Source of the DNA: Clostridia bacterium
GTDB taxonomy: Bacteria > Bacillota > Clostridia > Oscillospirales > Acutalibacteraceae
Assembly (NCBI GenBank): GCA_017938985.1
Contig: JAGBAK010000046.1
Coordinates: forward strand, 1-41,045
Direction of reading: 5' to 3'
Length of the DNA stretch: 41,045 bases
Part shown: piece by piece, positions 2-38,497 of the stretch
Layout: each line of letters starts with the position of its first letter
How positions within the stretch are numbered: the first letter of the stretch is position 1
Program-made: the position numbers and the translations under genes
Notes under the pieces: generated by a model
Seen by the model: only the letters and a program-made list of their open reading frames with translations
The model's database searches: none
What the model was told of the DNA's origin: nothing

Positions 2-1354
2 TTGAAATTTGGGAATAAGACTTGTGAGCAACAGGTCTTATTTTTGTTTTTGATTTTTAATTGGTACACAGACGCTGCATGCACAACCAAGCTTGCAGAA
101 AATGCAACAGTAGGTGCACAGGTTGTTAACCTTTATGCAAAGACAACAGCAGGCACCTTCACAGCAAACTTCTGGCTTGACGATGCAAAGACAGAGCTTT
201 ACTACACAGCAAACGTTGTCTTTGATAAGGAAATCAGACTTCCCGACACCCTCGAAGCTCCCACAAAGACAGGTTATATCTTCGCAGGTTGGGATCCCTA
301 TGTTGGTCTTATGGACGAAGAAGGTAAAGACTTCGTAGCAATCTGGTATGAAAACGATGTAGTTACAGCAACATTCTATGTTGACGGTGCTGTATACGAA
401 ATGTTTGACAACCTTACCTACGGCGCAGAGATGGAAATTCCCGCTCCTCCCGTTAAGGCTGGTCACAGATTCGACGGCTGGGCACTTAAGGGCACAACAG
501 ACATCGTTGACCTTCAGGGCACAACAGTTCCTGCTGAATCAGTTGAATACGAAGCAATCTTCACAATCACAGAGTTCTATGTAACATATAACAACTATGT
601 AGCATCAGAATTCGGTCCTGCAGGCACACCCACTCCCGCATATGAAGCATATGCAATTGACGGTGTTGCAGTTAAGAATGCATACAATCTTAACGATGCA
701 ATCGTTCATCCCGCAGCTCCCGTTGTTGCTGTTATTAAGGACGGCACAACTCATACCGAATACTACACCTTCTCACATTGGGAAGATGCAGACGGTAATG
801 TTTGGGCAGACGGTGCAGCGATGCCCGCAAACGACGTAGCTCTTTACGCTAAGTATGACAGAGCAACTGTTCAGCTTGCTGTAGTTGAAGGTTCCACCGG
901 TGTCCTTGAAAAGGCAAACGCAACCGATATGGAACAGTGGTATGCATACGGCTTCGCCGGCAGACGTATCAACTCTGCTGAAGTTCCCAAGTTGTTCACA
1001 GTTCAGGGCGACGGTTACTATGTAATTGAAAACTCCGAGCTTTCAGGAACATTCGGCACAGGTGCAAAGATAGTTGTTTATGACCGTCTTACCAACGAGT
1101 TTGTTGAAGAATATTACATCATCATCTTTGGCGATGTTGACGGTAATGCACGTATCGACGTTAATGACTCGTCGGCAATGGTTACTGAACTTGCGTCACC
1201 CACATGGTCTAACAGAAGAAACGGCGTTCCTTACAGAATTAAGGCAGCCGACCTCGACCTCAACCGCAGAATCGATACTAACGATTCCACACGTCTTATT
1301 AATGCTATTGCAGGCGAAGTTTCAATAGACCAGACAACAGGCGAAGCTAAGTAA
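2..1354 (+). CDS. InlB B-repeat surface protein with C-terminal dockerin, 5' end missing
   Basis: This is the C-terminal part of a large secreted repeat protein. The frame is open from base 2, but the first 18 or so codons pass through the terminator-like hairpin and do not look like protein. Recognisable coding sequence starts near base 58 with the tail of an InlB B-type repeat (WYTDAAC). Three more repeats follow, marked by GYIFAGW, GHRFDGW and YYTFSHW. Nucleotides about 867-1129 encode a conserved module ending in GTGAKIVVYD and an IIIFGD strand. It is followed by a type I dockerin with two calcium loops, DVDGNARIDVND and DLDLNRRIDTND, both with acidic or Asn residues at positions 1, 3, 5 and 12. 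InlB repeats are beta-grasp adhesion or spacer units, and dockerins bind cohesins on scaffold or cell-surface proteins. No signal peptide is visible because the true 5' end is absent. The next gene downstream has the same C-terminal architecture, so this is the first of three tandem paralogues. Confidence 0.8.
   Translation: MKFGNKTCEQQVLFLFLIFNWYTDAACTTKLAENATVGAQVVNLYAKTTAGTFTANFWLDDAKTELYYTANVVFDKEIRLPDTLEAPTKTGYIFAGWDPYVGLMDEEGKDFVAIWYENDVVTATFYVDGAVYEMFDNLTYGAEMEIPAPPVKAGHRFDGWALKGTTDIVDLQGTTVPAESVEYEAIFTITEFYVTYNNYVASEFGPAGTPTPAYEAYAIDGVAVKNAYNLNDAIVHPAAPVVAVIKDGTTHTEYYTFSHWEDADGNVWADGAAMPANDVALYAKYDRATVQLAVVEGSTGVLEKANATDMEQWYAYGFAGRRINSAEVPKLFTVQGDGYYVIENSELSGTFGTGAKIVVYDRLTNEFVEEYYIIIFGDVDGNARIDVNDSSAMVTELASPTWSNRRNGVPYRIKAADLDLNRRIDTNDSTRLINAIAGEVSIDQTTGEAK
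14..52 (+). terminator. Rho-independent terminator-like hairpin at the left edge
   Basis: An 11-bp stem (14-24 pairs with 32-42, one T-G wobble, loop TGAGCAA) is followed by a T-rich tract from 41 to 52. It looks like a normal intrinsic terminator, but it lies immediately upstream of, and in frame with, the middle of a repeat-protein gene. That is an odd place for a terminator and suggests a junction near base 55-60. Confidence 0.6.
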
Positions 1355-1372
1355 ACAGGTTTATTAATTACA

Positions 1373-1404
1373 CCCGAAGAGGTAACTTAGGTTATCTCTT
1401 CGGG
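1373..1404 (+). other. Long stem-loop after the first repeat-protein gene
   Basis: A 14-bp stem (1373-1386 with 1391-1404, one G-T wobble, loop TTAG) lies 18 nt after the stop codon. It has no T-tract on either side, so it is more likely a transcript-stabilising or processing element, or a weak terminator, than a strong one. The rest of 1355-1504 shows no gene and no promoter I can defend. A ribosome binding site, GGGAGG, precedes the next start. Confidence 0.45.
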
Positions 1405-1504
1405 AAAACCAAAAAGCAAAAGGATATCCCTTGCAAATTTGGCTATTATGGGATTATTCCCATTTATATATGCAGTTCCAAAAATTAAGGGAGGAATAAC
1501 TTGC

Positions 1505-4500
1505 ATGAAAACATTCAAACGCACCCTTTCCGGTTTTCTTGCCTTGTTGATGGTTTTCAGCTCTTTCTCCGTTCTTGCCACTGCAGTCGAATTGGACGAT
1601 GGCAACAAAATTACGGCTGAATTCTACACCGATTTTTTTGTTCAGAACGATGAAGGAGTCTGGGAAAAGACAGATAAGGTTAAAGCCGGAAAAACGGTAA
1701 AAGCGAGAGTTTCAATTGAAACAGACTACGCTATAGGTTCTTCACAGGTTCTCTGGGTTTATAACAGAGAATTCTTTGAGTGGAGTGATGAAGGAATTGC
1801 CACCTTAAGCGAAGGTATTTATAATGCATCAAGCATTTTAAATCCCGATGAAAATGCAGCAGCAAGCAGCGTTGGCGGTTTCTTTACCCACAGAACCGAA
1901 GTTGTAGAATATGAACCTGCTGACGATATGATCTACGATGGTCTTGTACCTGGTGATTATTTCGATGACAAAGGCTGGTTTGCTTTAAACCTTAACCAAG
2001 GTGTTCCCGTAGAACTCAGCAAAAATGATTACTTTGTTGAATTCACATTCACAGTTAAGAAAGATGCACAGGGTGAGGGCTTCCTCTTTGTTCCCGTGGA
2101 GTCTATCAGAAGTCCCGAATGGTCTTATTCACCCACATATCTTCAGCGTGCTTCCGGTCCTGACAACCTCAACGTTAACGTTCCGGAACAGGCTATGAGT
2201 ATGCCTTATAATTTAATTCCCAAGGATACTAACACAATCAAGCTCTATTCAGAAACATCCACAACATATACACAGAACGTATATACAATGGATACAACGG
2301 GTAATTACAGCGCAGCTGCTGTAACAACAACACCCACAGCCGAAATCGGTTCAACAATCAACGCTGCAAGCTATACTGCTCCTGCAGGCTTCTCAGTTGA
2401 TACCGCAAAGAGCACAGCAGGCGACGTTACAATCGAAGATGAAGGCGTATCATCAATCGATATTTACCTCAGCAGAAACAAGTATAAAGTTACTTTTGAC
2501 GGTAAAGAAACCGAACAGTATTTTGATGCTGTAATCGTTCCCGAAACAGCAGAAGAAAAAGAAGGCTACACATTCGCAGGCTGGTATGCAGGCGAAACAA
2601 AGCTTACCGAAACAACAAAGGTTCCCGTTGACGGTGCGGCTTACACAGCTAAGTACACACCCAACGAAGTTGGTTACACAGTTAACAAGTACTTCATGAA
2701 CACTGACGGCGAAACATATGCAGATGCAGTTCCCGAAGCATTCCCCGGCAAAACAGGCGATGAAGTAACCTACTCAACAGAGGTTGAAGGCTTCACACTT
2801 GACAAAACACAGGGCAAACTTTCCGACACCGTAACAGGCGACGGCAAACTTGTTCTTGAGGCTTACTACACCCGTAACAAGGTTCAGGTAACAATCAACG
2901 GCAAGACAGAAGAGATGTACTACGGCGAAACAATCGATAAGCCTTCAGATCCTCCTGCAGACCCCGGTTATGAATTTGACAAGTGGGTTGACGAAAAAGG
3001 CGACGAAGTTAAGTGGCCTGTAACAGTTGGTACTGAAGATATCGTTATCGAACCTTCATTCAGCAAGCTTCCCAGAACAGTAACATATAAGTATGTTGGT
3101 GCTCCCTCAGGCTACGATGTTCCCGCTCCCAAGATCGCTTACATCGAAGATCCCATCGAGCTTCCCACACTTCCCACAGTTGAAGGCTACACCATCAGTG
3201 ATTGGGTAATCACAGATGCAAACGGTGACGCTATCACAGACGGCAAGGTTGGTACAACAGACGTAACAGTTACAGCAACCTGGACTCTCAACGCTTACAA
3301 GGTAACTCTTGACCTTGACGGCGGCGAAGCTGCTATCACATCAATCGCAAAGAACCACGGCGAAACTCTTCACGCTGACGAACTTCCCGATGTTGTTAAG
3401 GCAGGCTATGACCACCTCGGCTGGACAGTTGACGGTGCAGACGCAACATTCCCCATGACAATCAAGGGCGATGTTATTCTCAAGGCAAAGCTTGCTCTTC
3501 ATAACTACAGCATTACTTACGCATTCTCAGGCAACAAGCCTGCAAGCGTAGACGTTCCCGCAGCAACAACAGGCACAATGGGTTCAGCTATTCCCATGCC
3601 CACAATCACAGATCCCGAAGGCTATTCATTCGGCGGCTGGGTTGCAACAGATGCTGAAGGCAACGAAATCACAGACGGCAAGGTTGGCACATCAGATATT
3701 ACCGTAACAGGTAAGTGGACTCTCAACCGCCATGACGTATCATTCGCAACAGGCGTTGAAGGCACAACAATCGACACAATCACAAGACCTTACGGTACTG
3801 AAATTACAGCTCCCTCAACAGATATCTCTGCTCTTAAACCCGGCTACACATTCGGCGGCTGGAAGGATAAGGCAACAGGCAGCGTTGTAACGTTCCCGTT
3901 CTCAATGCCTGACAGAAACGTTGAACTTGAAGCTGTTTGGACAGCAACTCCCAGAACAATCACTTACGTTTACGTTGGCGCTCCCGAGGGCTATGAAGCT
4001 CCCGCAGCAAAGACAGGCGTAATCGGTGATACAATCGAACTTCCCGGTCTTCCCACAGTTGACGGCTACGCAGTAGGCAACTGGGTAATCACAGATGCAG
4101 ACGGCAACGCTATCACAGACGGTAAGGTTGGTCTTACAAACGTAACAGTAACATCAACATGGACAAAGAATGCTTACGTTGTAACATTCTGGCTTGACGA
4201 AGACGGCACAAAGGTTCACCACACCGAAAACTATACATACGGTCAGGCTCTTAAATATCCTGATGCTCCCAACGTTCCCGGCTACATCTTTGAAGCATGG
4301 TCAGAAGTTGAGGGCATGGAAGTAACAGAAGCACTTGACGTATATCCCATCTACAAAGCAATTGAATACAACGTAACAGTTCTCGGTCTCTACGGCGATA
4401 CAGTTGATGAATGGATTGCTTTCTACGGCGACGAAATCACTCTTGGCGACCTTCTCACCAAGGAAGAAATGGATCAGATGCTCGCTGATAACGGCGACTT

Positions 4501-7500
4501 CTATACATTTGATTTCTGGGCATATGACGGCGATGAAATCACAGATGAAACTGTTATCACTGTAACAGCAGACGTTGAAATCGAAGGTAACTTCACAGCT
4601 ATGGATGCAAAGCTTATCTTTGATGCAAACGGCGCAACATTTGCTGAAAGCGGTTCCGGCATCTACGAAGTTGAACTTCTCTATGATGACGAAATCACAG
4701 CAAATATGTATCCCGCAATCCCCACATACGAAGGTCACACCTTCAAGGCATGGAGCCTTGACCTTGTAGGTCAGCCCATGGACGAACTCGAAAAGACAAT
4801 CTCCATCACATGGACAAAGAACACTTATAACGTTAAGTTCGTTAACGGTCTCACAGGTGAAGAAATCGAAACCGTAACAGGCGAGTACGGCGACGCTGTT
4901 GAAGCTCCCGCTCTTCCCGTAGTTGCAGGTTATACCTTTGCTTGGGATAACACCGTAACATCAATCCCCGCTAAGAACGAAAAGGGCGAAGTTATGGCAG
5001 CAGGCGGCACAATGACAGTTACCGCTGTTCCCACAGCTAAGACCTATGCAGTTAACTACTACGTTGACGGCGAGATCTATAACACCCTTACCGTTGCATA
5101 CGGCAAGCCCGTTGAATCAATCGCAGCTCCCGCAGCAGGCGATCTTCCCAGCGGTTACTCATTCCTCGGCTGGAGCCTTGATGCTGCTGCAACTCTTCCC
5201 GGCAACCTCGGCGTAGTCGGTGACGGCGACGTTAACGTTTATGCAGTTCTTCAGGCAAACGGCGACGTAGCTTATAAGGTAGAAATCTACCAGCAGAAGC
5301 TTGAAGGCGGCTATGAGCTTGTTGATACAGAAGAATTCACAAACGGTACAACAGGTAAGGTTGCTCCTTACGTAGTTGACCAGAACGTTGAAGGCTTCGT
5401 ATTCAACGAAGGTGCTTCAGTTCTTGACACACCCGTTGCAGGCGACGGCTCAACAGTTCTTAAGGTTTACTATGACCGCAAGACAATCACTGTTGACATC
5501 AACGGCGACAAGCAGGATGTTCCCTTCGGAACAGAAATCGACCTTCCCAACGACGTTGATGACGGCGACGAAGGCACAGAGTTTGATAAGTGGGTTGACG
5601 AAGACGGCAACGAAGTAAGCGATCCTTACATTGTTCCCGATTCAGATGAACCCGTTGTTATCACTCCCGTATTCACAAACAAGGAATTCACAATCACATA
5701 TTATAGGGACGGCGCTTCCGTCTATAGCCAGAAGGTAGCTTATAAGGCAGACGTTGAACTTGCTTACGGCGGTTCTTATATGCCCGATGGTTACGTATTC
5801 ATCGGCTGGACACTTACTGAGGGTTCAGACGAAATCGCAACAATCGACACAATGCCTGCTCACGACGTAGATCTCTATGCTATCTACGAAGCAGACACAG
5901 TCATCGAATACACAGTTGAATTCTACAAGCAGAACCTTGAAGGCGGCTATGAACCTGCCGGCACAGAAACATATCATGACGGCACAACAGGTGAAGAAGC
6001 TCCCTATGTTGTTGACGAAGATAAGTTTGAAGGCTTCGTATTCAACGCAGATGCATCAATCCTTGATACACCTGTTGCAGGCGACGGCACAACAGTTCTT
6101 GAAGTTTACTATGACCGCAAGACAATCAAGGTTCAGATTGGCGACAACGAACCCGTTGATGGTCCCTTCGGAACAGAAATCGACCTTCCCGATGACGTTG
6201 ATGACAAGGATCCCGGCACAGAGTTTGATAAGTGGGTTGACGAAGACGGCAACGAAGTAACCGATCCTTATATCGTTCCCGATTCAGAAGACGGTACACC
6301 CGTTGTTATCACTCCCGTTTATAAGAACAACTCCTTCGACGTAACATTCGTTGATGAACTCAACGGTACAACAAAGACAAACAGCTACGAATACACAACA
6401 AAGATCCCGAATCCCGGTTCACCCAGCGCAGTAGGCTATGAGTTCAACGGCAGGTTCACCAAGGACGGCGACAAGTATGTAGCAGGTACAACAACAGTTC
6501 CCAACGCAAACGTAACTTACTATGCTAAGTACACAGGTCTTCCCGTAACTTACATTGTTAACGTTTACTTCGAGAAGCTTGACGGCAAGGGTTGGGAAGA
6601 CGTTCAGTCCACAGTTGTTGACGGTGTAGCAGGCGAAACAGCTAAGTACACCGAAACATTCGAAGGCTTCACACTTGATAATGATATCTCCACAACAGAA
6701 GCTACTATCAAGGGCGACAGCTCAACAGTTCTTGTTATCTACTTCACCAGAAACGATGTAACAATCACCGTTGACGGCGAAGAAAAGGATGTTCCTTACG
6801 GCACAGAAGTTGATGAAGACGATCTCAAGCCCGACGTTGAACCCGGCTACAAGGTAGACAAGTGGGTTGACGGCGAAGGCAACGAAATCACATTCCCCGT
6901 TGAAATCAAGGGCGGCGAAGAATTCATCCCCGTAATCGTTAAGGAAACATACTCACTCATCTTCAGACTTGCTGACGGCACAGTTGTTGAAGAAACAGCA
7001 GCAGTTGAATTCGATTCAGAAATCACTGCTCCTCAGGCTCCCGAAGCTGCTGAAGGCTACACCTTCGCAGGTTGGGTAGACGCAGCAACAAACGAACCCT
7101 TCAACGGCAAGATGCCCGCTAAGGCAACAGTTTACGTTGCAGTTTACACAAACAACGAAGCTGCTAATTACACAGTTAACATCTACATCATGAACACAGA
7201 AGGCGTTGAAGAACTCTCCGGTTCTTACACCGCAACAGCCGCTATCGGCACAACTCAGTCAGTTGTTCCCGGCAAGGTTGACTTCTGCACTCTTGACACA
7301 GCCAAGAGTAACACAAGCTGCGTAGTTCTTGCAGACGGCACAGCTTCCATCAACCTCTACTTCGTAAGAGGTCTCTACACAGTAAGCTTCGACGGCGTTG
7401 AAACTTCCGTTTATGCCGGCGCAGTTATCCCCGTACCCGCAGATCCCGCAGTTGAAGGCAAGACCTTCCTCGGCTGGACACCTGCAATTCCCAATGTAAT

Positions 7501-8404
7501 GCCTGAAAACGATCTCGAATTCACATCAACTTGGGAAGACGTAACTTACACAATCACTTACGTTGTAAACGGCGACAAGATCGTTCATAACTACAAGTTC
7601 GGCGATACGGTTACCGCTTATGAAGTAACAGAAGCTCCTGCAGGTCTCACATTCAAGGGCTGGTCAGACACCGTTCCCGCAACAATGCCTGCAGAAAACA
7701 TTACCGTTTCCGCAATCTTCGAGGCTGCTGCATACACAGTAACCTACCTTGATGCAGAAGGTAACGTATTCGTATCCTACTCAGTTGCATTCGGCGCAGA
7801 AATTCCTGTTCCCGCAGACGCACCTGCTAAGGAATTCTACACCTTCAAGGGTTGGTCAGCAGCACCCGCAACAATGCCTGCTGAAAATATCACAATCGAG
7901 CCCATCTTCGAGCCCGTTCCTGTTCGTCTTATTGCCGCTCCCGGTTCAACAACCGTTATCGACAGAGACAACATGGTAATCTACGGTCTTGACATCGGTC
8001 TCTCAGCTAAGATTCTTGACGATAACTTCCTTGATTACGAAGGCGACGGTACTCTTGTTATCAAGCCCGTAACAGAAGGCACAAGCAGATACGGCACAGG
8101 CGCTGTTGTTGAACTTTATGACAACGCCGACGGTTCACTCGTTGAAACATTCCATATCGTTGTATTCGGCGACCTTAACGGTGACTCACATGTAAACGGT
8201 CTTGACGTTTCCATCGCTTCTGACGAAGCATTCTGGATCACTGACTGGTCAATTGAAGGCGAAAACTTCGAGGCTTACAAGCTCATCGCAGCTGACCTTG
8301 ACCACAACGGCTTCATCGACACAACAGATGTTTCCAACATCAAGAACTACGTACTCAGCCTTGTTGAAATCGATCAGGTAGCAGGCAAAGTCGTTCGCTC
8401 CTAA
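1505..8404 (+). CDS. Giant secreted InlB B-repeat protein with cohesin-like N-terminus and C-terminal dockerin (2299 aa)
   Basis: The ATG at 1505 is chosen because GGGAGG lies about 10 nt upstream and a classic signal peptide follows at once (MKTFKRTL, hydrophobic core, cleavage around residues 26-28). An in-frame extension to 1439 lacks these signs. Residues about 35-240 form a beta-rich module with KVKAGKTVKARV, VLWVYNREFFE and FVEFTFTVKKD, resembling the strand pattern of cohesins (inference). From about 250 to 2135 I count roughly 21 InlB B-type repeats by their GYxFxGW signature. About six units of the form YxVxxY...GFxLD...VLxVYYxR, MucBP-like, are interleaved. Residues about 2138-2220 are the conserved pre-dockerin module. 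G2222 onward is a type I dockerin with DLNGDSHVNGLD and DLDHNGFIDTTD. The protein is strongly acidic and has no LPxTG, SLH or terminal membrane segment, so attachment would have to go through the dockerin or another partner. Likely role: cell-surface adhesin or structural fibre; substrate unknown. Confidence 0.85.
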   Translation: MKTFKRTLSGFLALLMVFSSFSVLATAVELDDGNKITAEFYTDFFVQNDEGVWEKTDKVKAGKTVKARVSIETDYAIGSSQVLWVYNREFFEWSDEGIATLSEGIYNASSILNPDENAAASSVGGFFTHRTEVVEYEPADDMIYDGLVPGDYFDDKGWFALNLNQGVPVELSKNDYFVEFTFTVKKDAQGEGFLFVPVESIRSPEWSYSPTYLQRASGPDNLNVNVPEQAMSMPYNLIPKDTNTIKLYSETSTTYTQNVYTMDTTGNYSAAAVTTTPTAEIGSTINAASYTAPAGFSVDTAKSTAGDVTIEDEGVSSIDIYLSRNKYKVTFDGKETEQYFDAVIVPETAEEKEGYTFAGWYAGETKLTETTKVPVDGAAYTAKYTPNEVGYTVNKYFMNTDGETYADAVPEAFPGKTGDEVTYSTEVEGFTLDKTQGKLSDTVTGDGKLVLEAYYTRNKVQVTINGKTEEMYYGETIDKPSDPPADPGYEFDKWVDEKGDEVKWPVTVGTEDIVIEPSFSKLPRTVTYKYVGAPSGYDVPAPKIAYIEDPIELPTLPTVEGYTISDWVITDANGDAITDGKVGTTDVTVTATWTLNAYKVTLDLDGGEAAITSIAKNHGETLHADELPDVVKAGYDHLGWTVDGADATFPMTIKGDVILKAKLALHNYSITYAFSGNKPASVDVPAATTGTMGSAIPMPTITDPEGYSFGGWVATDAEGNEITDGKVGTSDITVTGKWTLNRHDVSFATGVEGTTIDTITRPYGTEITAPSTDISALKPGYTFGGWKDKATGSVVTFPFSMPDRNVELEAVWTATPRTITYVYVGAPEGYEAPAAKTGVIGDTIELPGLPTVDGYAVGNWVITDADGNAITDGKVGLTNVTVTSTWTKNAYVVTFWLDEDGTKVHHTENYTYGQALKYPDAPNVPGYIFEAWSEVEGMEVTEALDVYPIYKAIEYNVTVLGLYGDTVDEWIAFYGDEITLGDLLTKEEMDQMLADNGDFYTFDFWAYDGDEITDETVITVTADVEIEGNFTAMDAKLIFDANGATFAESGSGIYEVELLYDDEITANMYPAIPTYEGHTFKAWSLDLVGQPMDELEKTISITWTKNTYNVKFVNGLTGEEIETVTGEYGDAVEAPALPVVAGYTFAWDNTVTSIPAKNEKGEVMAAGGTMTVTAVPTAKTYAVNYYVDGEIYNTLTVAYGKPVESIAAPAAGDLPSGYSFLGWSLDAAATLPGNLGVVGDGDVNVYAVLQANGDVAYKVEIYQQKLEGGYELVDTEEFTNGTTGKVAPYVVDQNVEGFVFNEGASVLDTPVAGDGSTVLKVYYDRKTITVDINGDKQDVPFGTEIDLPNDVDDGDEGTEFDKWVDEDGNEVSDPYIVPDSDEPVVITPVFTNKEFTITYYRDGASVYSQKVAYKADVELAYGGSYMPDGYVFIGWTLTEGSDEIATIDTMPAHDVDLYAIYEADTVIEYTVEFYKQNLEGGYEPAGTETYHDGTTGEEAPYVVDEDKFEGFVFNADASILDTPVAGDGTTVLEVYYDRKTIKVQIGDNEPVDGPFGTEIDLPDDVDDKDPGTEFDKWVDEDGNEVTDPYIVPDSEDGTPVVITPVYKNNSFDVTFVDELNGTTKTNSYEYTTKIPNPGSPSAVGYEFNGRFTKDGDKYVAGTTTVPNANVTYYAKYTGLPVTYIVNVYFEKLDGKGWEDVQSTVVDGVAGETAKYTETFEGFTLDNDISTTEATIKGDSSTVLVIYFTRNDVTITVDGEEKDVPYGTEVDEDDLKPDVEPGYKVDKWVDGEGNEITFPVEIKGGEEFIPVIVKETYSLIFRLADGTVVEETAAVEFDSEITAPQAPEAAEGYTFAGWVDAATNEPFNGKMPAKATVYVAVYTNNEAANYTVNIYIMNTEGVEELSGSYTATAAIGTTQSVVPGKVDFCTLDTAKSNTSCVVLADGTASINLYFVRGLYTVSFDGVETSVYAGAVIPVPADPAVEGKTFLGWTPAIPNVMPENDLEFTSTWEDVTYTITYVVNGDKIVHNYKFGDTVTAYEVTEAPAGLTFKGWSDTVPATMPAENITVSAIFEAAAYTVTYLDAEGNVFVSYSVAFGAEIPVPADAPAKEFYTFKGWSAAPATMPAENITIEPIFEPVPVRLIAAPGSTTVIDRDNMVIYGLDIGLSAKILDDNFLDYEGDGTLVIKPVTEGTSRYGTGAVVELYDNADGSLVETFHIVVFGDLNGDSHVNGLDVSIASDEAFWITDWSIEGENFEAYKLIAADLDHNGFIDTTDVSNIKNYVLSLVEIDQVAGKVVRS
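5267..5692 (+). repeat. Internal DNA duplication, copy 1
   Basis: About 425 bp encode a MucBP-like unit (from YKVEIYQQKLEGGYE to VYYDRK), followed by an InlB-type unit with GTEFDKWVDEDGNEV and YIVPDS. A closely matching copy lies about 210 bp further on. Similarity is high at both DNA and protein level (for example PFGTEIDLP and FDKWVDEDGNEV shared exactly), pointing to fairly recent intragenic duplication. Confidence 0.7.
5902..6329 (+). repeat. Internal DNA duplication, copy 2
   Basis: This is the second copy of the unit at 5267-5692. It encodes YTVEFYKQNLEGGYE through GTEFDKWVDEDGNEV and YIVPDSEDGTPVV. Differences are concentrated in the linker and in a few substitutions; the InlB-type core is nearly unchanged. 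The 210 bp between copies encodes a single ordinary InlB repeat, so the duplicated block may have been a two- or three-repeat unit. Confidence 0.7.
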
Positions 8405-8415
8405 CCTCTGACATT

Positions 8416-8520
8416 ATTCGCGGGGAGGGGAGAGTCTCTTCTCCCCGTGAATTAGAGATATGTCACGCAAGAGTGGCGGCACACCACTCTTTGACTCCGG
8501 CTCACAGCACAGAACCGGAG
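8416..8520 (+). promoter_or_regulatory. Structured leader: three successive hairpins before the third repeat-protein gene
   Basis: The 139 nt between the two giant genes contains three consecutive stems. The first is a 16-bp stem with wobbles, 8416-8431 with 8437-8452, whose core is CGGGGAG/CTCCCCG. The second is a perfect 8-bp stem, 8469-8476 with 8484-8491. The third is a 6-bp stem, 8495-8500 with 8515-8520. The last ends 7 nt before the AAGGAGG ribosome binding site. None is followed by a T-tract. The arrangement could stabilise or process a long mRNA or control translation of the downstream gene. I do not recognise it as a known riboswitch. Confidence 0.5.
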
Positions 8521-8543
8521 AAATAACAAGGAGGAATTCTCTC

Positions 8544-11500
8544 ATGACAAAAATCAAAAGGTTAGTCGCTGTTGTACTGGCTTTATTGATGATTTTTGGT
8601 TCAGTTTCAATCGTTGCTTCCGCTTGGGATGCAACTACTGACGACGGTTTTACGTTAAACGTAAACACAAAAATCTTCAGACAAGTTGACGGCGAATGGA
8701 TCGAAACTACCAAAGTTAAAGCAGGCGAAACGGTAAAGGCAAGAGTATATCTCGGAACAGATTATTTTACCAACGGCGGCGACCTCTTATTCTTCTATAA
8801 CACAAGCTTCTTTGAGGATGCTTATTCAAGCGACCTTCAGACACTTGCTGTTAACACCGCTGTTTATGCCGGCGGTAATTATGGTATTACCGGCACTTTC
8901 TATAACTCACTGTCCGCAACAAACGTTGAAGGCAGACTTGTAAGACTCGGCGTTATTGATCAGAATTTCGCTGATAAACACAACTATTTTGCAGTGAGCT
9001 TCTCACTTGCAGGCGATAAGAAGAACAATCTTTTACTCGCAAATGAATGGTTCTGCGAATTTGACCTCAAGGTTAAGGCAGACGCAAGCGCTGCTGATGC
9101 AGGCGATATGTTTGCTCTTGCAAACACATTCAGAAGTGACGCAGTTAAAACAAACTACTGCAATATTTCCAAGGGTCCCTCATTCGGCTACAACGAAGAT
9201 GTAGTTGATATGACACAGTGGAATGCAACCGTATCGGTTGCAAGCCAGCCCGTTACTCTTTACACAAACTACGTTGAAGCAACCTTTGATGCAAACGGCG
9301 GTGTATTTGCTGACGGCGAAGCTGAAAAGGTTCTTACAGGCGAAGCCGGCACGGCTCTCAATGTAGGCGCACCCGTTTACGAAGGCTTCACCTTCAAGGG
9401 TTGGGTAGCTGAAGGCACAACAGAAGTTCTTCAGGACGTTGTTGCTCTTCCCCAGGCAAACGCAACTTACGTTGCACAGTGGGAATCAGCAGTTGACAAG
9501 TATGACGAAACTCTCGGTTTCAGAACAGAAATCTACAGACAGAACGATAACGGCGAATGGGTATTCACTGAAAAGGTAATCCCCGGCGAAACAGTTAAGG
9601 CAAGAATTTTCATCGACACCACTTATTTCACCAATGCCGGTGACTTCGTTGTGTTCTATGATAACGATTTCTTTGAAGAAGTTGACCCCAACTTCACAGA
9701 AGGTTCTTACACAGACCTCGTAACAAATGATTCCGCAACAAGCTCAGCAGCTATCGTTGCTGCAGAAGGCACATATTCACTTGTTCCTTCTTCGGCAAGA
9801 GTTATCAAGAGACTTGTTGAAGCAGGTCACATCACACAGGATTTTGCTGAAACACACACAGCATATCTTGCAACCTATAAGTTTGTTCCTGCAAACAGTG
9901 CAGTTCTCAGCGGCGACGAATACTTCGCAGAATGGGAACTCAAGGTTAAGGATTCCGCAACAGGCGAAGGCGATTTCTTTGTAGTTGAAGAAACTATCCA
10001 GAACGCAAGCGCTGCAGGCCAGAAGGCTTATATCAACATCCCCCTCAGCTATGAAGGCGGCACAGATGACGATTCAATCTCACTCTTCGAGGTTAACGTT
10101 AATACTGAAGTTGAAAGCAATCCCGTAACCACAGTCAGCGCAATCAACTTTGACGCTAACGGCGGCGAATTCGCAACAGGCGAAACAACGTTCGTTATCG
10201 AAGGCGACATTGCTGATCCCGTTGATGCAGCAACAATCCCCGAAGTAACCAAAGACGGTTATACATTCATCGGTTGGGTTCCTGCAGACCTTGCAGATCC
10301 CACAGAAGCAGACGTTGTTGACGTTCCCACAGAGATTCCCTTTGATGAACTCTTCCTCAAGGCTCTCTGGATCAACGAAGTTACAATCACAATCGACCCC
10401 TCAAACGGTGATCCCATCATTGAAGAGACCGTAACAGCAGGCGATCCTTTCGATAAGCCTGAAGATCCCTCCAAGGAAGGTCATTATCTTGCAGGTTGGG
10501 TTGACGGTGACGGCAACTTTATGACAGAGCTTCCCGATAACTATCCCGCAGAGGATACAACCTACACAGCAGTATTTGAAACATACACTTACACAGTTGA
10601 GTACTATGTTCTCAATTCTGAAACACTTAAGTTTGACAGAGTTGCAGCTGTAAACACAGCTTACGGTGAAGAAATTCTTGCAGTTCCTCCCACATACACA
10701 CTGCCCGAAGGCTTCACACTCAGTGCAGCTTACACAGACATTTCTTTCACAAACGCATTTGCAGCCGGCACAACAATGCCTGCTGACAACGTTCAGCTTT
10801 ACTACCAGGCAGTAGCTAACAAGTATCCCGCAACCTTCGATCTTGACGGCGGTAACATTGACGGTAACACAGACGATGTTGTTATCGAAACCATTTACGG
10901 CCAGCAGATCAAGACTCCTGCAGACCCCGTTAAGGAAGGCCATACCTTCACAGGTTGGACTCCCATGGTTGGTATGATGGATTCCGAAGGTGCTGACTTC
11001 ATCGCTACTTGGGAAGTAAACGATTACACAGCAACCTATATCGTTGAAGGCAAAGTTTATGAAGCATATGACATTCCCTTCGGCGGTGAAATGGAAACTC
11101 CCGCAGCTCCCGTTCTTGAAGGTTATAACTTTGTAGGTTGGGATCCTTCACCCATTCCCGCAACAATGCCTGCTGAAGATCTTACCTTCACAGCAGTGTT
11201 CGAGAAGAAGGATATCACAATCACTCTCAAGCTTGACGGCGGCGAATACGACGGCGATCCCGCTGATATCGTAATCGCAGGCAAGTACGGTGATGCTGTT
11301 ACAGCTCCCGATGCAGCTCTCCTTGCTAAGGAAGGCTACGTATTCGGCGGTTGGGAACCTGCTCTTCCCGATGCACTTCCCGCAGAAGATGCTGAATACA
11401 CAGCAATCTGGAATCCCGCAACCGATACACCTTATCAGGTATGGGTATATCTTGAAAACACAGACGGCACATTCCCTGCAGACGATGCTCCCAGCCAGGT

Positions 11501-14366
11501 TATCAATATGACAGGCGTGACTGACTCTGTTATCAATGTTGCTATCCCCACTCCCTATGGCTTCGTTCTTAACGAAACAAAGGGTGACGTTGCAAACGAT
11601 GTAACAATCGCTGCTGACGGCTCAACAGTTTATAAGATTTACTTTGACAGAGAGAAATACGATATCAAATTTGACGGCAACGGCGGCACAATCGCCGGCG
11701 AGCCCTCAACAACAGATGAATACCGTTATCTCGCTTCCGTAACTGCTCCTGCAGAAGCTGACCTTTACAAAGAAGGATACACCTTCCTCGGTTGGACTCC
11801 CTCAGTTGACAGCGAAGCAACAAAGGACGTAACATACGTTGCACAGTGGGAAGTTAACTCCTATGACGTTAACTACATGATCAAGGGTGCAGACGGCGCT
11901 GAAGACGAACTCTTCAAGACCGAGTCCTTCAACTATGGCGATGCTCTCACCGTAACAGCTGATAAGCCCGAAAAGACAGGTTACAGCTTCGGCGGTTGGA
12001 CAGATGAAAACGGCGCAACTTATAGGTTCCCCGCAACAATGCCCGCTGAAGACATCACCGTTTATGCAAAGTTCACTCCCAGAAACTATGAAGCTAAGTT
12101 CTATGAAGAAGCTGATGCTGATGCTCCCTATGACATCACAAACGCTGACTTCGACGCTCCCGTTGAAGCTCCCGCATCACAGCCCTCCAAGGAAGGCTAT
12201 GAATTCGGCGGCTGGTCAACAGACGGCGTAACACCCGTTGATTTCACAAAGGAAATCATGGATGAAGAAGGCAAGGACTACGTAGCAATCTGGAACGCAG
12301 CAGAACAGGATATCCCCGTTGAGTATTATTACATGGATACAGACGGCACATATCCCGCAGCAGCTGATAAGACAGAAACCGTTAAGTTCAAGACAGGCGA
12401 AACAGCAACAGTAGCTCCCGCTGATGAAGCAAACTACACAGTTGATGCTGACAAGTCAGTTCTTGAAGCAGTTGTAGCAGCTGACGGTTCAACCGTTCTT
12501 AAGGTTTACTACAAGCTTAACTCCACAAAGCTCACCATCGAAGTTGATGGCGAAGAAACAGTTATCGAAGGTCTTGTTGGTTCAGACGTTCCTGCAGACA
12601 AGATTCCTGATACTGACAAAGACGGTTACACCTTCAACGGCTGGGTAGACGAAAACGGCGATCCCGTTGACGTTCCCGCAACAATGCCCGAAGAAGACAC
12701 AACCATCAAGGCTGATTACAGCATAAACAGCTACAACGTAACATATTATGTTGACGGCGAAATTTATGACGGCCCCAATTCTACAGAGTTTGGTGCTCCC
12801 ATTGCTGAGCCCTCAACTCCCACAAAGGTTGGCTATTCATTTGCCGGTTGGCTTGATGATGCAAACCACAAGCCCAGTGATTACGGCGTAATGCCCTCAA
12901 CAGACCTCGAATTCTATGCACAGTGGACTGCTAACGCAAACATTGGCTACGTTCTCGAAGTTTACGAAATGGGTACAGACGGCACATATCCCGCAACTCC
13001 CACAACAGTTTATAACTTCAATGACGGCGTTGTAGGCGATGAAAGAACTGTTACACCTACCGTTCCCACAGGCTTCACACTTGACGTTGAAACAGAAAAC
13101 ACTGCAGAAAAGAGCGTTCTTACAGGTAAGATCCCTGCAACAGGTACTCTTGTTCTTAAGGCTTACTACACCAGAGATCAGTATACACTCTATATTGACG
13201 TTGACGGTGACGTAACAGAAGAAGTTTACTATTATCAGCAGGAAATCGCTGACATCGCTGATCCCGTTAAGAAGGGCTGGACCTTCACAGGTTGGGAACC
13301 CGAAGTTCCCGCAACAATGCCCGCTAACGACGTAACAGTTGTTGCTCAGTTCACAAAGAACTCCTATCCTGCATCATTCAACGCAGGTGAAGGCGCATTC
13401 GCAACAGGCGATAAGACTGTTGAAACCGACGTTCCTTATGCAGAACCCATCACAGCTCCTGCAAACAACCCCGTAAGAGACGGTTATAACTTCAAGGGCT
13501 GGTCAACAGACGGAACAAACGTAATTGAAAACCTCGGCAGAATGGACGATGACGGCGCTGAATTCATCGCTGTTTGGGAAAAGGCTGAAGTTACAGTAAC
13601 ATTCTATAACTACCTGCCCTCAGAAAAGGGTCCCGCAGTTCCCGACGGTCAGGCAACATACGTTTATGATCAGGCAACCTATCTCTACGGCGAAACAGTA
13701 GTATTCCCCGCTGATCCCACAATCCAGGGTCACGAAGATCACTACGTATTCATCGGTTGGGTAGATGCTGACGGTAACGCAGTTGAACCCGGTATCACAG
13801 CTCCTTCCGCAAACCTTGACATCTATGCATCATATGAAAGAGTTAAGGTTATGCTTATCCCCAAGAACGACACTTGCACAACAGTCATCGACAGAGCAGG
13901 TCTCACAGTTGATGATTACACAGCAGACAGCGAGTGGTATGTATACGGTCTTGAAGAGATCCTTTCACTGAATCTTCTTCTCAACGAATACATTGACGTT
14001 CAGGGCGACGGCAAGATCGTTGTTACAAAGATCAAGGATAACAGTAAGTACTACGGTACAGGCTCAATCATTGATGTTTACGATAACGTAACAGGCGAGC
14101 TTGTTGAAAGCTTCAGAATCGTCATCTTCGGCGATATCGACGGTGACTCCTATGCAAACGGCGTTGACCTTTCAATCCTCTCCGAAGAAGTTCTCAGCCT
14201 TACATACTGGTCAATCGACGGCGCTGATGAATATTGCGCATATAAGGTTAAGGCAGCAGACCTCCGTCCCGACGGCGTAATCGACGTTCAGGATAAGGCT
14301 CTCCATAACAAGCACGTTCTCAGCCTTGGTTACATCAACCAGGAAACAGGTCTTGTTGAAATGTAA
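8544..14366 (+). CDS. Giant secreted InlB B-repeat protein with two cohesin-like modules and C-terminal dockerin (1940 aa)
   Basis: The start at 8544 follows AAGGAGG with 9-nt spacing and opens a signal peptide (MTKIKRLVAV, hydrophobic stretch, cleavage near ASA-W at residue 27). A longer frame from 8460 would run through the hairpins and is rejected. Residues about 36-242 and 334-545 are two copies of the N-terminal module found once in the upstream protein; all share the pattern GxTVKARxxxxTxY and YxxxFFE. One InlB repeat separates them. About 13 further InlB B-type repeats (GYxFxGW) and about four MucBP-like units follow. The C-terminus (from about 1775) has the conserved pre-dockerin module, then a dockerin from G1863 with DIDGDSYANGVD and DLRPDGVIDVQD. 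The second loop has Arg instead of Asp/Asn at position 3 (R1908), which should weaken calcium binding. There is no wall-anchoring motif. It is a paralogue of the gene before it and probably co-expressed with it; the ligand is unknown. Confidence 0.85.
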   Translation: MTKIKRLVAVVLALLMIFGSVSIVASAWDATTDDGFTLNVNTKIFRQVDGEWIETTKVKAGETVKARVYLGTDYFTNGGDLLFFYNTSFFEDAYSSDLQTLAVNTAVYAGGNYGITGTFYNSLSATNVEGRLVRLGVIDQNFADKHNYFAVSFSLAGDKKNNLLLANEWFCEFDLKVKADASAADAGDMFALANTFRSDAVKTNYCNISKGPSFGYNEDVVDMTQWNATVSVASQPVTLYTNYVEATFDANGGVFADGEAEKVLTGEAGTALNVGAPVYEGFTFKGWVAEGTTEVLQDVVALPQANATYVAQWESAVDKYDETLGFRTEIYRQNDNGEWVFTEKVIPGETVKARIFIDTTYFTNAGDFVVFYDNDFFEEVDPNFTEGSYTDLVTNDSATSSAAIVAAEGTYSLVPSSARVIKRLVEAGHITQDFAETHTAYLATYKFVPANSAVLSGDEYFAEWELKVKDSATGEGDFFVVEETIQNASAAGQKAYINIPLSYEGGTDDDSISLFEVNVNTEVESNPVTTVSAINFDANGGEFATGETTFVIEGDIADPVDAATIPEVTKDGYTFIGWVPADLADPTEADVVDVPTEIPFDELFLKALWINEVTITIDPSNGDPIIEETVTAGDPFDKPEDPSKEGHYLAGWVDGDGNFMTELPDNYPAEDTTYTAVFETYTYTVEYYVLNSETLKFDRVAAVNTAYGEEILAVPPTYTLPEGFTLSAAYTDISFTNAFAAGTTMPADNVQLYYQAVANKYPATFDLDGGNIDGNTDDVVIETIYGQQIKTPADPVKEGHTFTGWTPMVGMMDSEGADFIATWEVNDYTATYIVEGKVYEAYDIPFGGEMETPAAPVLEGYNFVGWDPSPIPATMPAEDLTFTAVFEKKDITITLKLDGGEYDGDPADIVIAGKYGDAVTAPDAALLAKEGYVFGGWEPALPDALPAEDAEYTAIWNPATDTPYQVWVYLENTDGTFPADDAPSQVINMTGVTDSVINVAIPTPYGFVLNETKGDVANDVTIAADGSTVYKIYFDREKYDIKFDGNGGTIAGEPSTTDEYRYLASVTAPAEADLYKEGYTFLGWTPSVDSEATKDVTYVAQWEVNSYDVNYMIKGADGAEDELFKTESFNYGDALTVTADKPEKTGYSFGGWTDENGATYRFPATMPAEDITVYAKFTPRNYEAKFYEEADADAPYDITNADFDAPVEAPASQPSKEGYEFGGWSTDGVTPVDFTKEIMDEEGKDYVAIWNAAEQDIPVEYYYMDTDGTYPAAADKTETVKFKTGETATVAPADEANYTVDADKSVLEAVVAADGSTVLKVYYKLNSTKLTIEVDGEETVIEGLVGSDVPADKIPDTDKDGYTFNGWVDENGDPVDVPATMPEEDTTIKADYSINSYNVTYYVDGEIYDGPNSTEFGAPIAEPSTPTKVGYSFAGWLDDANHKPSDYGVMPSTDLEFYAQWTANANIGYVLEVYEMGTDGTYPATPTTVYNFNDGVVGDERTVTPTVPTGFTLDVETENTAEKSVLTGKIPATGTLVLKAYYTRDQYTLYIDVDGDVTEEVYYYQQEIADIADPVKKGWTFTGWEPEVPATMPANDVTVVAQFTKNSYPASFNAGEGAFATGDKTVETDVPYAEPITAPANNPVRDGYNFKGWSTDGTNVIENLGRMDDDGAEFIAVWEKAEVTVTFYNYLPSEKGPAVPDGQATYVYDQATYLYGETVVFPADPTIQGHEDHYVFIGWVDADGNAVEPGITAPSANLDIYASYERVKVMLIPKNDTCTTVIDRAGLTVDDYTADSEWYVYGLEEILSLNLLLNEYIDVQGDGKIVVTKIKDNSKYYGTGSIIDVYDNVTGELVESFRIVIFGDIDGDSYANGVDLSILSEEVLSLTYWSIDGADEYCAYKVKAADLRPDGVIDVQDKALHNKHVLSLGYINQETGLVEM

Positions 14367-14836: not shown

Positions 14837-16942
14837 TCAGCTGTTGAGCATTGCGTCCTTATATCTTTCAAAAAGTCTTCTTGCTTCATCAACCGTGTTT
14901 TCTTCCGAGGGAGCTTCAGGGTTAACGGTGGATAGCCATTTCTTTTCAAACTCGGCATATCTCTTGTAGAAATCGTTGCCTCTGTATATGTTTCGTTCAC
15001 AATGCTGTTTTCTTGTTGTGGTTGAGAAAAGTCTCCTCTTGGGGAATTCATATGCAAGACGTTCAAAGAAGCTCTGCCAACGCTTTGCATAATACGTTTT
15101 CATAAGACCTCCCCATTCTTTCCAGGCGTAATCATAGTTCACACTGTTGCTGAACGGACCCCAGATTGTGAGCTGAACAAGCAGGTTGAGTTCAAAGTTT
15201 TCCTTGTCCTTTTCTGTAAATGCAAGCTCACCTGCTTCCTTAAGGTGCTCATAAAGAGTCAGCTCGGGTCTTGTCTGAAGCAGTCCGTCAAGCTCTTCGC
15301 AAAGCTTGAGGAAAGCGTTTGACGAACGTTCAAAAATCTTAACGTCTTTGTTTTTGTAGCCGTACATAACGTTATCATAAAGAGTGCCTGCGTAGTTACT
15401 CATAACCTGTCTCACAAGGTCGCAGGCATCATAGGCATAGCCATCCTTGCTTGCGTTTTCGGCGTTCAGAAGAAGTTCGGTTGCCTTGATAAGCGTTTTG
15501 TTATCGTAACGGAGCTCTCTGAAATCGTTGGGTGCGGTGTGGCGCAGGTCTGTTGCAGGTCTTGCGCAGATAACCGAGCCCGTCTCTCTGCCGGTACAGT
15601 TTTCGCTGTAGCAGCTTTGGCTCAGCAGAAGCATAGCATCGGCGAGGCATCTTTCGCGGCTGCCGTAGCGACGGTATGCATAGTTGCGCAGCCATTCCTC
15701 AAGGTCAACCGCTTTGTCTTCGGTCATCATCTGGAAAGCAAGGTCAAAATAGAGGGGATTCTGCATAATGCCCTCCATAAACAGACCCGTACCCACGCAG
15801 TTTTCGCTGCCTTCGGTCAGATATTTGTTATCGGCAAGCGCCTTGATGCTGCCGTGCAGAGTGTTTCTGTCACCGAAATTCTGCAGAGTGCCGAGAATGT
15901 AATCATATCCCCAGAATTCGTTTGTTTCCTTGTGCTTTGAGCCGTCAATGTCAAGAATAAGCAGTTTATCCTTGGACACAGCCTTAACTATTTTTTCGCG
16001 CAGTGACCAGCTTTGCATAACCCATACGGCGTCCTTATCAAACTCAGTATACATTGAGCTGATTTCGTAGCCGACCTTGAAAAGGTAATCCCTTGTTTTA
16101 ACAGAGGGTTCGTTTTCGTGGAAGGGGTCGCAGGCGTAATAATGATATGCGCCGAAAAGCTGACGCTGTTTTTCAAGCAGAGCCTTTCCGAACTTTTTAA
16201 ACAGTGGGTCAGTCGGGTCAAGCTGATAGGTAAAGGGGAAGTTGCACCACGAGGGGATAAGACGCAGCTTTGCTTTTTTGAAAAGCTTTGTAACGCTCTG
16301 AGGCACAGTGCCCGTGTAGCCCTGTTGAATGGGGGTCATGCCGAGCTCAACCTCACGGTCAATAATCCTTTTGCCAAGCTCAACACGGCTCTCAATATAT
16401 TTAACGTCTGTCAGGCTGAAATAGCCCGTGATGTTTGTCATAAGCTGCCACGGCCAGAAGCCGGGACCTGAAATGAACTGCATTGCGCCGTTCTCGCTGT
16501 AAGTGAAATCACGCAGTGTGTAATACCAGACTGCCTCTGTGCCAACAACGCTCAGGGGCATGTTGATGCCGTTCATCGCCATAAAGTCAATTTCTTTTTC
16601 CCATTTATCCCATTTCCAGTAAGCAAAGGAATAGCCGAAGGTGCAATAGTTGAGGTATGCCCTCTTTTTCTGGGGGATAATCTTTTGAAGTCTGCCTTCA
16701 AAAAGGGGAGCGGAGCTTACGTTGATTTCTCTGTTGCCGCAGTGCGAAAGGTTAACGCCGCAATAGGTTTTGAGGTATTCATAGTAACCCATTGCCTGGC
16801 TGATTTTGCAGTCGCCGCAGATAACGATTTTGTCATTTTCGCAAAACACGTCAAAGGTGTTTTTACCGTCAACAGGCTCAATTGTGCGCAGTTCAAATAT
16901 ATCGGCAATTTCGGGTGTATTTCTGAGAATCAGGTTTTTCAA
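14837..16942 (-). CDS. Alpha-N-acetylglucosaminidase, glycoside hydrolase family 89 (701 aa)
   Basis: GH89 enzymes release terminal alpha-linked N-acetylglucosamine, for example from heparan sulfate or from alpha-GlcNAc-capped mucin glycans. The family landmarks are present: MNGINMPLS and GTEAVWY near residues 123-140, GPGFWPWQ at 159-166, CDPFHENEP around E276 and GTGLFMEGIMQNP around E390. By alignment from memory with human NAGLU (E316, E446) these two glutamates are the catalytic pair. The length fits the core family without accessory carbohydrate-binding modules. The start is TTG at 16942: AGGAG lies 9 nt upstream, while the nearby ATG at 16949 is out of frame. There is no signal peptide, so the enzyme is predicted to be cytoplasmic and to act on imported oligosaccharides, unlike the secreted clostridial forms. 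It is a single-gene unit with its own promoter and terminator. Confidence 0.92.
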   Translation of the reverse strand: MKNLILRNTPEIADIFELRTIEPVDGKNTFDVFCENDKIVICGDCKISQAMGYYEYLKTYCGVNLSHCGNREINVSSAPLFEGRLQKIIPQKKRAYLNYCTFGYSFAYWKWDKWEKEIDFMAMNGINMPLSVVGTEAVWYYTLRDFTYSENGAMQFISGPGFWPWQLMTNITGYFSLTDVKYIESRVELGKRIIDREVELGMTPIQQGYTGTVPQSVTKLFKKAKLRLIPSWCNFPFTYQLDPTDPLFKKFGKALLEKQRQLFGAYHYYACDPFHENEPSVKTRDYLFKVGYEISSMYTEFDKDAVWVMQSWSLREKIVKAVSKDKLLILDIDGSKHKETNEFWGYDYILGTLQNFGDRNTLHGSIKALADNKYLTEGSENCVGTGLFMEGIMQNPLYFDLAFQMMTEDKAVDLEEWLRNYAYRRYGSRERCLADAMLLLSQSCYSENCTGRETGSVICARPATDLRHTAPNDFRELRYDNKTLIKATELLLNAENASKDGYAYDACDLVRQVMSNYAGTLYDNVMYGYKNKDVKIFERSSNAFLKLCEELDGLLQTRPELTLYEHLKEAGELAFTEKDKENFELNLLVQLTIWGPFSNSVNYDYAWKEWGGLMKTYYAKRWQSFFERLAYEFPKRRLFSTTTRKQHCERNIYRGNDFYKRYAEFEKKWLSTVNPEAPSEENTVDEARRLFERYKDAMLNS

Positions 16943-38350: not shown

Positions 38351-38497
38351 TTTATTTACCTCCGAAATTTGTTTGTTTTTTTGGCCTTTCACCTTAATGA
38401 CGAAACAAAAACGGAGTTGGTCTAAAGAAATTTGAAATTTTTTTGAAAACTTTTTATTTTTTTTGAAAAACCGATATTCTCAGCTTCAGAATCCATA
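38351..38497 (-). other. AT-rich leader of the BNR gene
   Basis: This stretch carries no gene. It is rich in runs of A and T, and on the minus strand contains the phrase AACTCCG-TTTTTGTTT-CGTC about 50 nt before the start codon, reminiscent of ECF-sigma -10 (CGTC) elements. The spacing does not fit well, so I do not call a promoter. It probably contains the BNR gene promoter. Confidence 0.35.

Follow-up and report, generated by a model that had tools for sequence, protein, structure and literature searches.

Pairs of cohesin and dockerin modules are known chiefly as plugs by which enzymes are hung on scaffolds. The present work deals with a contig of 41,045 nucleotides (hereafter the window) from a Clostridia bacterium of the family Acutalibacteraceae, which begins with three tandem genes for giant proteins. 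In this family of giants, found in one genus and among further homologues, a module of predicted cohesin fold and a dockerin stand at opposite ends of proteins without a recognised enzyme.

In Ruminococcus bromii, Amy4/Sca1 combines a cohesin and a dockerin in a single chain, for which self-aggregation has been proposed, Sca5 carries a sortase signal, and MucBP modules are present on some dockerin proteins (PMC5814915); Sas20 of this species is a starch-binding protein (PMC9112005). The amylosome thus resembles the system described here in the combination found in Amy4 and in the sortase-signalled Sca5. However, according to the parts of the report available to us, the R. bromii dockerin proteins are chiefly GH13 enzymes (PMC5814915), whereas no enzyme was found on the window giants. 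The giants are also larger (1940-3574 amino acids (aa), against ~1357 for Amy4), contain InlB-type repeats and carry N-terminal cohesin-like modules that fall below the Pfam cut-off. In the Limousia mucinolysome, as far as the accessible text goes, cSca5, with a cohesin at its N-terminus and an LPxTG anchor, is predicted to hold the dockerins of cSca1 and cSca2, whose cohesins are in turn predicted to bind their own dockerins (PMC12997984). Dockerins of that system are also found on many carbohydrate-active enzymes (CAZymes) and peptidases, and its scaffoldins have tandem cohesins (PMC12997984), whereas no dockerin-bearing enzyme was found in the set scanned here.

The group 4b dockerin operon of Ruminococcus flavefaciens is similar to the window in that its five consecutive genes have like C-terminal dockerins preceded by a conserved stretch, and some group 4 dockerins have been suggested to help structure the cell surface (PMC2930009). 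Nevertheless, the group 4b proteins have transglutaminase-like or leucine-rich repeat (LRR) domains and belong to a fibre-degrading species, and no N-terminal cohesin is described for them in the available part of that report (PMC2930009). Non-cellulosomal cohesin or dockerin proteins of anaerobic methanotrophic (ANME) archaea and Omnitrophota, discussed in relation to cell-cell contact or adhesion, belong to other phyla and have other architectures, and the excerpts available to us describe no cohesin-rod-dockerin protein with an anchored partner (PMC9012536, PMC10066038). The giant architecture with a cohesin-like module, a rod and a dockerin was not found in the accessible portions of the literature on these precedents, and our literature search, whose coverage lay outside a 2009 review of non-cellulosomal modules, found no paper joining cohesin and dockerin with the InlB B-repeat, or dockerin with the Listeria-Bacteroides repeat. 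What is new here is the pairing of this N-module with a dockerin unit on enzyme-free giants, together with the presence of the N-module on sortase-anchored proteins of congeners.

Results

Three tandem genes share one C-terminal unit

The window is contig C15 of its genome (2.19 Mb in 138 contigs, 81% complete) and starts with three successive open reading frames (ORFs) on the + strand (2-1354, 1439-8404 and 8460-14366), corresponding to one C-terminal fragment and two complete giants. A first-pass annotation had described tandem giants with cohesin-like N-termini and a common pre-dockerin/dockerin end, and this is confirmed: the ORFs, the alignment of the C-terminal units and the Dockerin_1 matches all agree. 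Gene 1 (2..1354), recognised from its ORF, from Pfam and by comparison with the congener G165, encodes the C-terminal part of a giant InlB-repeat protein; only this part is visible because the ORF is open at the first base of the contig and the G165 gene at the same position encodes 3574 aa. Gene 2 (1505..8404) encodes a protein of ~2299 aa with a signal peptide, one cohesin-like N-module, 16 InlB-type stretches, a pre-dockerin module and a dockerin, and gene 3 (8544..14366) one of ~1940 aa with the same order of parts, two N-modules and 14 InlB-type stretches. The ORFs open at 1439 and 8460; the ATG codons at 1505 and 8544 are the likely starts, and fit the signal-peptide-like stretch seen by eye behind each of them.

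The C-terminal unit (C-unit) common to the three genes consists of a pre-dockerin module of ~80 residues, delimited by alignment of the units (845..1129, 7898..8167 and 13824..14129 in genes 1, 2 and 3, respectively), and a two-loop dockerin (1130..1309, 8168..8356 and 14130..14315). The C-units of genes 2 and 3 share 33 and 34% identity with that of gene 1, the GTG, YD and FGD motifs being conserved. Two F-hand calcium loops are present in the dockerins, which we take to be of type I, with recognition positions assumed accordingly. The dockerins of genes 1 and 2 score 23.3 and 26.7 bits with Pfam Dockerin_1, above its cut-off of 22.9. When the C-terminal region was searched as a profile of 19 rows, as the first reading had advised, it matched solved dockerins among the PDB sequences (best E 9.3e-8). 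A Foldseek search with the predicted C-unit gave no match at E<=0.001; with VIA-align its best X-dockerin match was 4wkz chain A, and the pre-dockerin module, a possible relative of the X-modules of CttA or ScaB, superposed poorly on X-modules.

The bodies of the proteins are made of InlB-type repeats as first described, with Flg_new (List_Bact/InlB-type) stretches numbering 4 in the gene 1 fragment, 16 in gene 2 and 14 in gene 3, in addition to Flg_new_2; the MucBP-like repeats that had also been proposed found no Pfam match in the window proteins, MucBP being present in a sortase-anchored relative in a congener. In agreement with the first description, no enzyme, LPxTG or SLH family was matched on the giants by Pfam at E<=1, a search in which the HMMER filters drop most matches above ~0.1. 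A sortase signal is absent from the three proteins themselves, all of which end in the dockerin unit. No DNA repeats were detected in the window by the tandem-repeat finder, and scans for promoters and terminators gave sites no more numerous than in shuffles.

The dockerins found in the same genome are those of the three giants and of one cut ORF of 910 aa on contig C23 (L029 6990-9722, -), which has the unit at its end. C-units also terminate ORFs of ~1550-1900 aa in many congeners. In five dockerin proteins of congeners (1566-1744 aa) the dockerin is the only Pfam family, falling just under the cut-off in two of them. No enzyme was found on the dockerin proteins scanned, namely the giants and these five, a set that does not take in the 910-aa ORF as a whole or the other congener dockerin ORFs, the genome of the window being 81% complete; in the scanned set the system is thus unlike the cellulosome, the amylosome and the mucinolysome.

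The N-terminal module is predicted to have a cohesin fold

The N-module has ~200 residues and is present in three copies in the window, one in the gene 2 protein (1574..2257) and two in the gene 3 protein (8613..9272, recognised by comparison of the N-modules, and 9468..10145). The structure prediction recommended in the first-pass annotation was run on the second copy of gene 3 (modelled as 9474-10148), and AlphaFold2 returned a beta-sandwich of the cohesin type with a predicted local distance difference test score (pLDDT) of 94.4 and a predicted template modelling score (pTM) of 0.90; the alignments for structure prediction contained the window and nine (N-module) or eight (C-unit) of ten named genome loci. 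Cohesins were 49 of the best 50 Foldseek matches of this model and the first 45 matches by VIA-align, and the ScaC, ScaG and ScaE cohesin structures of R. flavefaciens (PDB 5lxv, 4n2o, 4wkz, 2zf9) were among the best, 4wkz chain B being CohG.

Profile comparison by hhalign gave scores of 23.8-30.2 between N-module and cohesins, whereas 20 column shuffles reached no more than 15.9; from the cohesin set, six of 29 stretches were left out (one on the wrong strand, the others below the cut-off alone, N-modules or doubtful). The congener G156 has a clear N-module (139.8 bits with the N-module profile), to which PF00963 gives 18.6 bits (E 0.0018, under the cut-off), and two borderline N-modules in G191 and G176 reach the cut-off of 24.1 only when frame neighbours are added (24.7 and 26.4 bits). 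Judging from the model, its structural neighbours and these weak but above-shuffle profile matches, the N-module very probably has a cohesin fold, so that the cohesin likeness first proposed holds as far as the fold is concerned. Since the best PF00963 score in the window is 12.3 bits, we term the module cohesin-like and do not file it in that family.

N-module and dockerin unit occur on one chain

A protein search with residues 30-560 of gene 3, covering both N-modules and the stretch between them, found 190 proteins. Among the matches listed, 118 of 120 N-module homologues also have a dockerin unit, and 117 of the 120 end within 15 residues of it; the unit is lacking in P0051 and P0060 and internal in P0118. 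The reciprocal search with the dockerin unit of gene 2 found 187 proteins, and 117 of the 120 long dockerin-unit proteins among the matches listed have an N-module. The only recognised enzyme family in the precomputed Pfam annotation of the listed proteins is PF03062, on P0051.

When the search was restricted to 250-790 aa, 18 proteins were obtained: five that contain repeats and the unit, including that of the window, and 13 short ones (P0130-P0142; 358 aa, one of 258) that consist of a signal peptide, a cohesin-like stretch and the C-unit, with little else. One cluster of the 358-aa type spans 35 contigs. The N-module profile hits the cohesin-like stretch weakly (9-15 bits) in five of the 18. 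With P0135 as query, phmmer retrieved two cohesins of scaffoldins that match in the expected region but fall short of significance (E 0.24 and 0.35), and Pfam called no cohesin there.

Dockerin units co-occur with the N-module in the genus

The survey comprised 45 genomes of the genus, including that of the window. A dockerin unit is present in 43 of them and an N-module in at least 37, a count in which short pieces at contig ends were left out and weak copies may be missed. PF00963 matched 18 genomes at E<=0.01, 14 of them above the cut-off, two of which (G176 and G191) are N-modules; these two, and the hits of G156, G173, G185 and G186, found only below the cut-off, are not counted as canonical cohesins. 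Strong dockerin units, defined by a limit of 1e-18, are found in 32 genomes; 30 of these contain N-modules and 8 contain canonical cohesins, compared with 7 and 4 of the other 13 genomes (Fisher p 0.004 for the N-module and 0.72 for the canonical cohesin, kinship uncorrected). Dockerin presence therefore tracks the cohesin-like N-module and not canonical cohesins. As a universal partner of these dockerins, a canonical cohesin is not supported by co-occurrence.

Outside the genus the N-module looks rare, as its profile of three rows matched 6 of 150 sampled family genomes, three of these belonging to the genus. A different arrangement is seen in G158, where one ORF of 585 aa (G158:C1:28121-29566) holds three tandem dockerin units.

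Sortase-anchored N-module proteins in congeners

From the window's genome and near-complete congeners, 54 ORFs with an N-module were read. The dockerin unit closes 20 of them and a sortase signal 11; 5 have an amphipathic tail, 3 a hydrophobic GFLWY one and 10 some other end, and 5 are cut. A previous survey with HMMER filters had given 47; the unfiltered recount left the number of anchors unchanged because the seven added ORFs end in the dockerin (2) or in other tails (5). The sortase signals are IPDTG, IPSTG, IPQTG, NPATG, IPATG and VPHTG, each followed by a hydrophobic stretch and a charged tail. Eleven of the 15 near-complete congeners have such a protein; in G183 and G191 its N-module scores weakly (25 and 26 bits). 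The ORFs read in G164, G175, G182 and G189 included no anchored copy. In G015, G163 and G191 the anchored gene lies directly behind a dockerin-ending gene, with a gap of ~90-250 bases.

In a tree of 41 N-modules, limited to copies of >60 bits and >150 residues and thus without the G183 and G191 anchors, the sortase label has to change 4 times, with no fewer than 3 of these changes forced, so the module probably met the wall anchor more than once. N-modules of different gene positions tend to form lineages of their own. The genome of the window encodes a sortase (41.9 bits) and one protein of 155 aa with an IPSTG end; Pfam Gram_pos_anchor has no match over the cut-off there, a threshold at which 13 of 14 control genomes match.

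Other tails are recurrent. The remaining N-module proteins of this genome are on contigs C19, with a hydrophobic tail, and C118. At 38759-41044 (-) the window encodes a BspA-type LRR protein that has Big_3 and terminates in WWQMIIRILLLGFLWY, and a near-identical tail ends the C19 protein and N-module proteins in G160 and G165; judging from its recurrence in sequence, it is perhaps an unrecognised surface anchor. Five further N-module proteins (L031 6016-7977, L156, L161, L171 and L174) have close to their ends an amphipathic stretch with the pattern FF-x-(R/K)-(L/V/I)-I-(A/G)-F-(F/I)-(R/K), a possible signal for association with the envelope.

Discussion

Taken together, the architectures and the structural model favour the reading that the three proteins belong to an enzyme-free cohesin-dockerin surface system, in which giants would dock on a wall-anchored cohesin-like module and probably on each other. 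In the complete proteins the predicted cohesin-fold module, present once or twice close to the signal peptide, is followed by the long InlB-type rod and, at the very C-terminus, by the pre-dockerin and dockerin. Docking would depend on calcium, and it is likely that the dockerins of the family bind its cohesin-fold modules. A sortase-anchored N-module protein would hold the first giant at the wall via its dockerin, and the distal N-modules of that giant would hold the dockerin of the next, giving linear chains, or branched ones where two N-modules are present, whose InlB repeats would form a projecting adhesive or matrix layer. Head-to-tail chaining, plausible in view of the architectures seen, and docking on a scaffold elsewhere had both been raised in the first-pass annotation. 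Candidates for the latter were found in the sortase-anchored congener proteins and in a two-cohesin protein on contig C69 of the same genome, while the docking itself is a prediction. For chains of more than one giant we consider the case evenly balanced. Tentatively, gut Clostridia may in this way build a non-covalent pilus-like fibre, whose giants would polymerise outward from the sortase-anchored cohesin-fold module, each dockerin entering the next N-module, with two-module subunits as branch points, matched specificities ordering the gene products, InlB-type repeats replacing enzymes as cargo and the 358-aa module pairs as the shortest subunits.

Several observations weigh against the proposed docking. 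Regarding the N-module, the gene 2 copy is under the PF00963 cut-off (12.3 against 24.1 bits, at 1667-2071), neither gene 3 copy matches PF00963 even at E<=10, and the N-module profile matches nothing among the PDB sequences at E<=10. The hhalign probability is just 7.5-38.7%, and the G191 and G176 copies are marginal N-modules (30.1 and 24.6 bits) to which a second N-module profile gives 9.5 bits in one case and no hit in the other. Moreover, the VIA Z falls gradually, from 9.6 for cohesins to 9.5 for streptococcal antigen I/II domains, and therefore the N-module may be a ligand-binding adhesin domain of similar fold. As to the dockerins, that of gene 3 is degenerate (15.8 bits, under the Dockerin_1 cut-off, with an Arg seen by eye at position 3 of the second loop), and the residues just before the last loop Asp differ among the units (compared in units over 60 bits), so that the pairing, if any, may be heterotypic. 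In the co-occurrence test kinship is left out of account and the 1e-18 threshold was chosen after the list was seen, and G158 and G188 have strong dockerin units without detected N-modules. Both protein searches admit only proteins of similar, long length, and many of the 120 listed dockerin-unit proteins are near copies. Searched with the G165 protein, the window's genome, 81% complete, gave no sortase-anchored N-module protein, the matches being just known N-module or repeat proteins; ORFs also read on C34, C106 and C52 have no sortase signal at their ends, that on C52 being cut. Finally, the canonical two-cohesin protein of C69 could be the partner of the window dockerins.

It must be taken into account, then, that the dockerins might plug into a conventional scaffold such as the C69 protein, whose start is cut and whose two cohesins (46 and 41.8 bits with PF00963) are accompanied by repeats and a hydrophobic tail, the cohesin-shaped N-module being a tip adhesin for a host or plant ligand. 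The distal position of the N-module and the scores of antigen I/II and PrgB domains near those of cohesins in VIA-align would fit this explanation, but 24 of the 32 genomes with strong dockerins have no canonical cohesin above the cut-off, among them six near-complete ones (G015, G160, G163, G165, G175 and G191), and we regard it as unlikely, bearing in mind that PF00963 would miss highly divergent cohesins. The two-cohesin protein, which also has Big_2, is encoded at L006 3-2882 (+), on a contig that also has helicase-like (7279-10854) and MoxR-like ATPase (10851-11813) ORFs, identified by eye, and that may be mobile DNA.

The position of anchored N-module genes directly after dockerin-ending genes in three congeners would equally suit giants that dock singly on the anchored protein, their own N-modules taking no part in assembly, and the separate N-module lineages by gene position point the same way, so specificities may differ. 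This explanation seems improbable to us, since it leaves the N-module of nearly all listed giants (117 of 120) unaccounted for, and G175 and G164, near-complete and with giants, have no anchored copy among the ORFs read. Last, nearly all listed members carry both modules on a single chain, and the 358-aa relatives are little beyond a cohesin-like stretch and a C-unit, which would be consistent with the two modules of a chain binding each other, in a protein loop or with the dockerin masked until a stronger partner is met. In both complete window proteins, however, ~1200-1900 residues of rod lie between the two modules, and such closure is very improbable.

Should the N-modules be shown to bind the giants' dockerins, bacteria would have a distinct route to a surface layer or fibre, one that presumably comes apart when calcium is removed, and the 358-aa proteins offer a small system for binding tests. 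The implied existence of a divergent cohesin group largely missed by the usual profile means that the number of dockerins counted as orphans in gut genomes would have to be reconsidered.

Neighbouring genes

The giant cluster adjoins a gene for a GH89 alpha-N-acetylglucosaminidase (NAGLU; 14837-16942, -) with no signal peptide obvious by eye. In G161 and G160 the cluster is likewise followed by NAGLU and then by a housekeeping run with pyrH first (by eye), and NAGLU is also present in G165. At 37175-38392 (-) the window encodes a secreted-looking BNR_2 (sialidase-like) protein (211 bits), which together with the GH89 protein hints at the use of host glycans.
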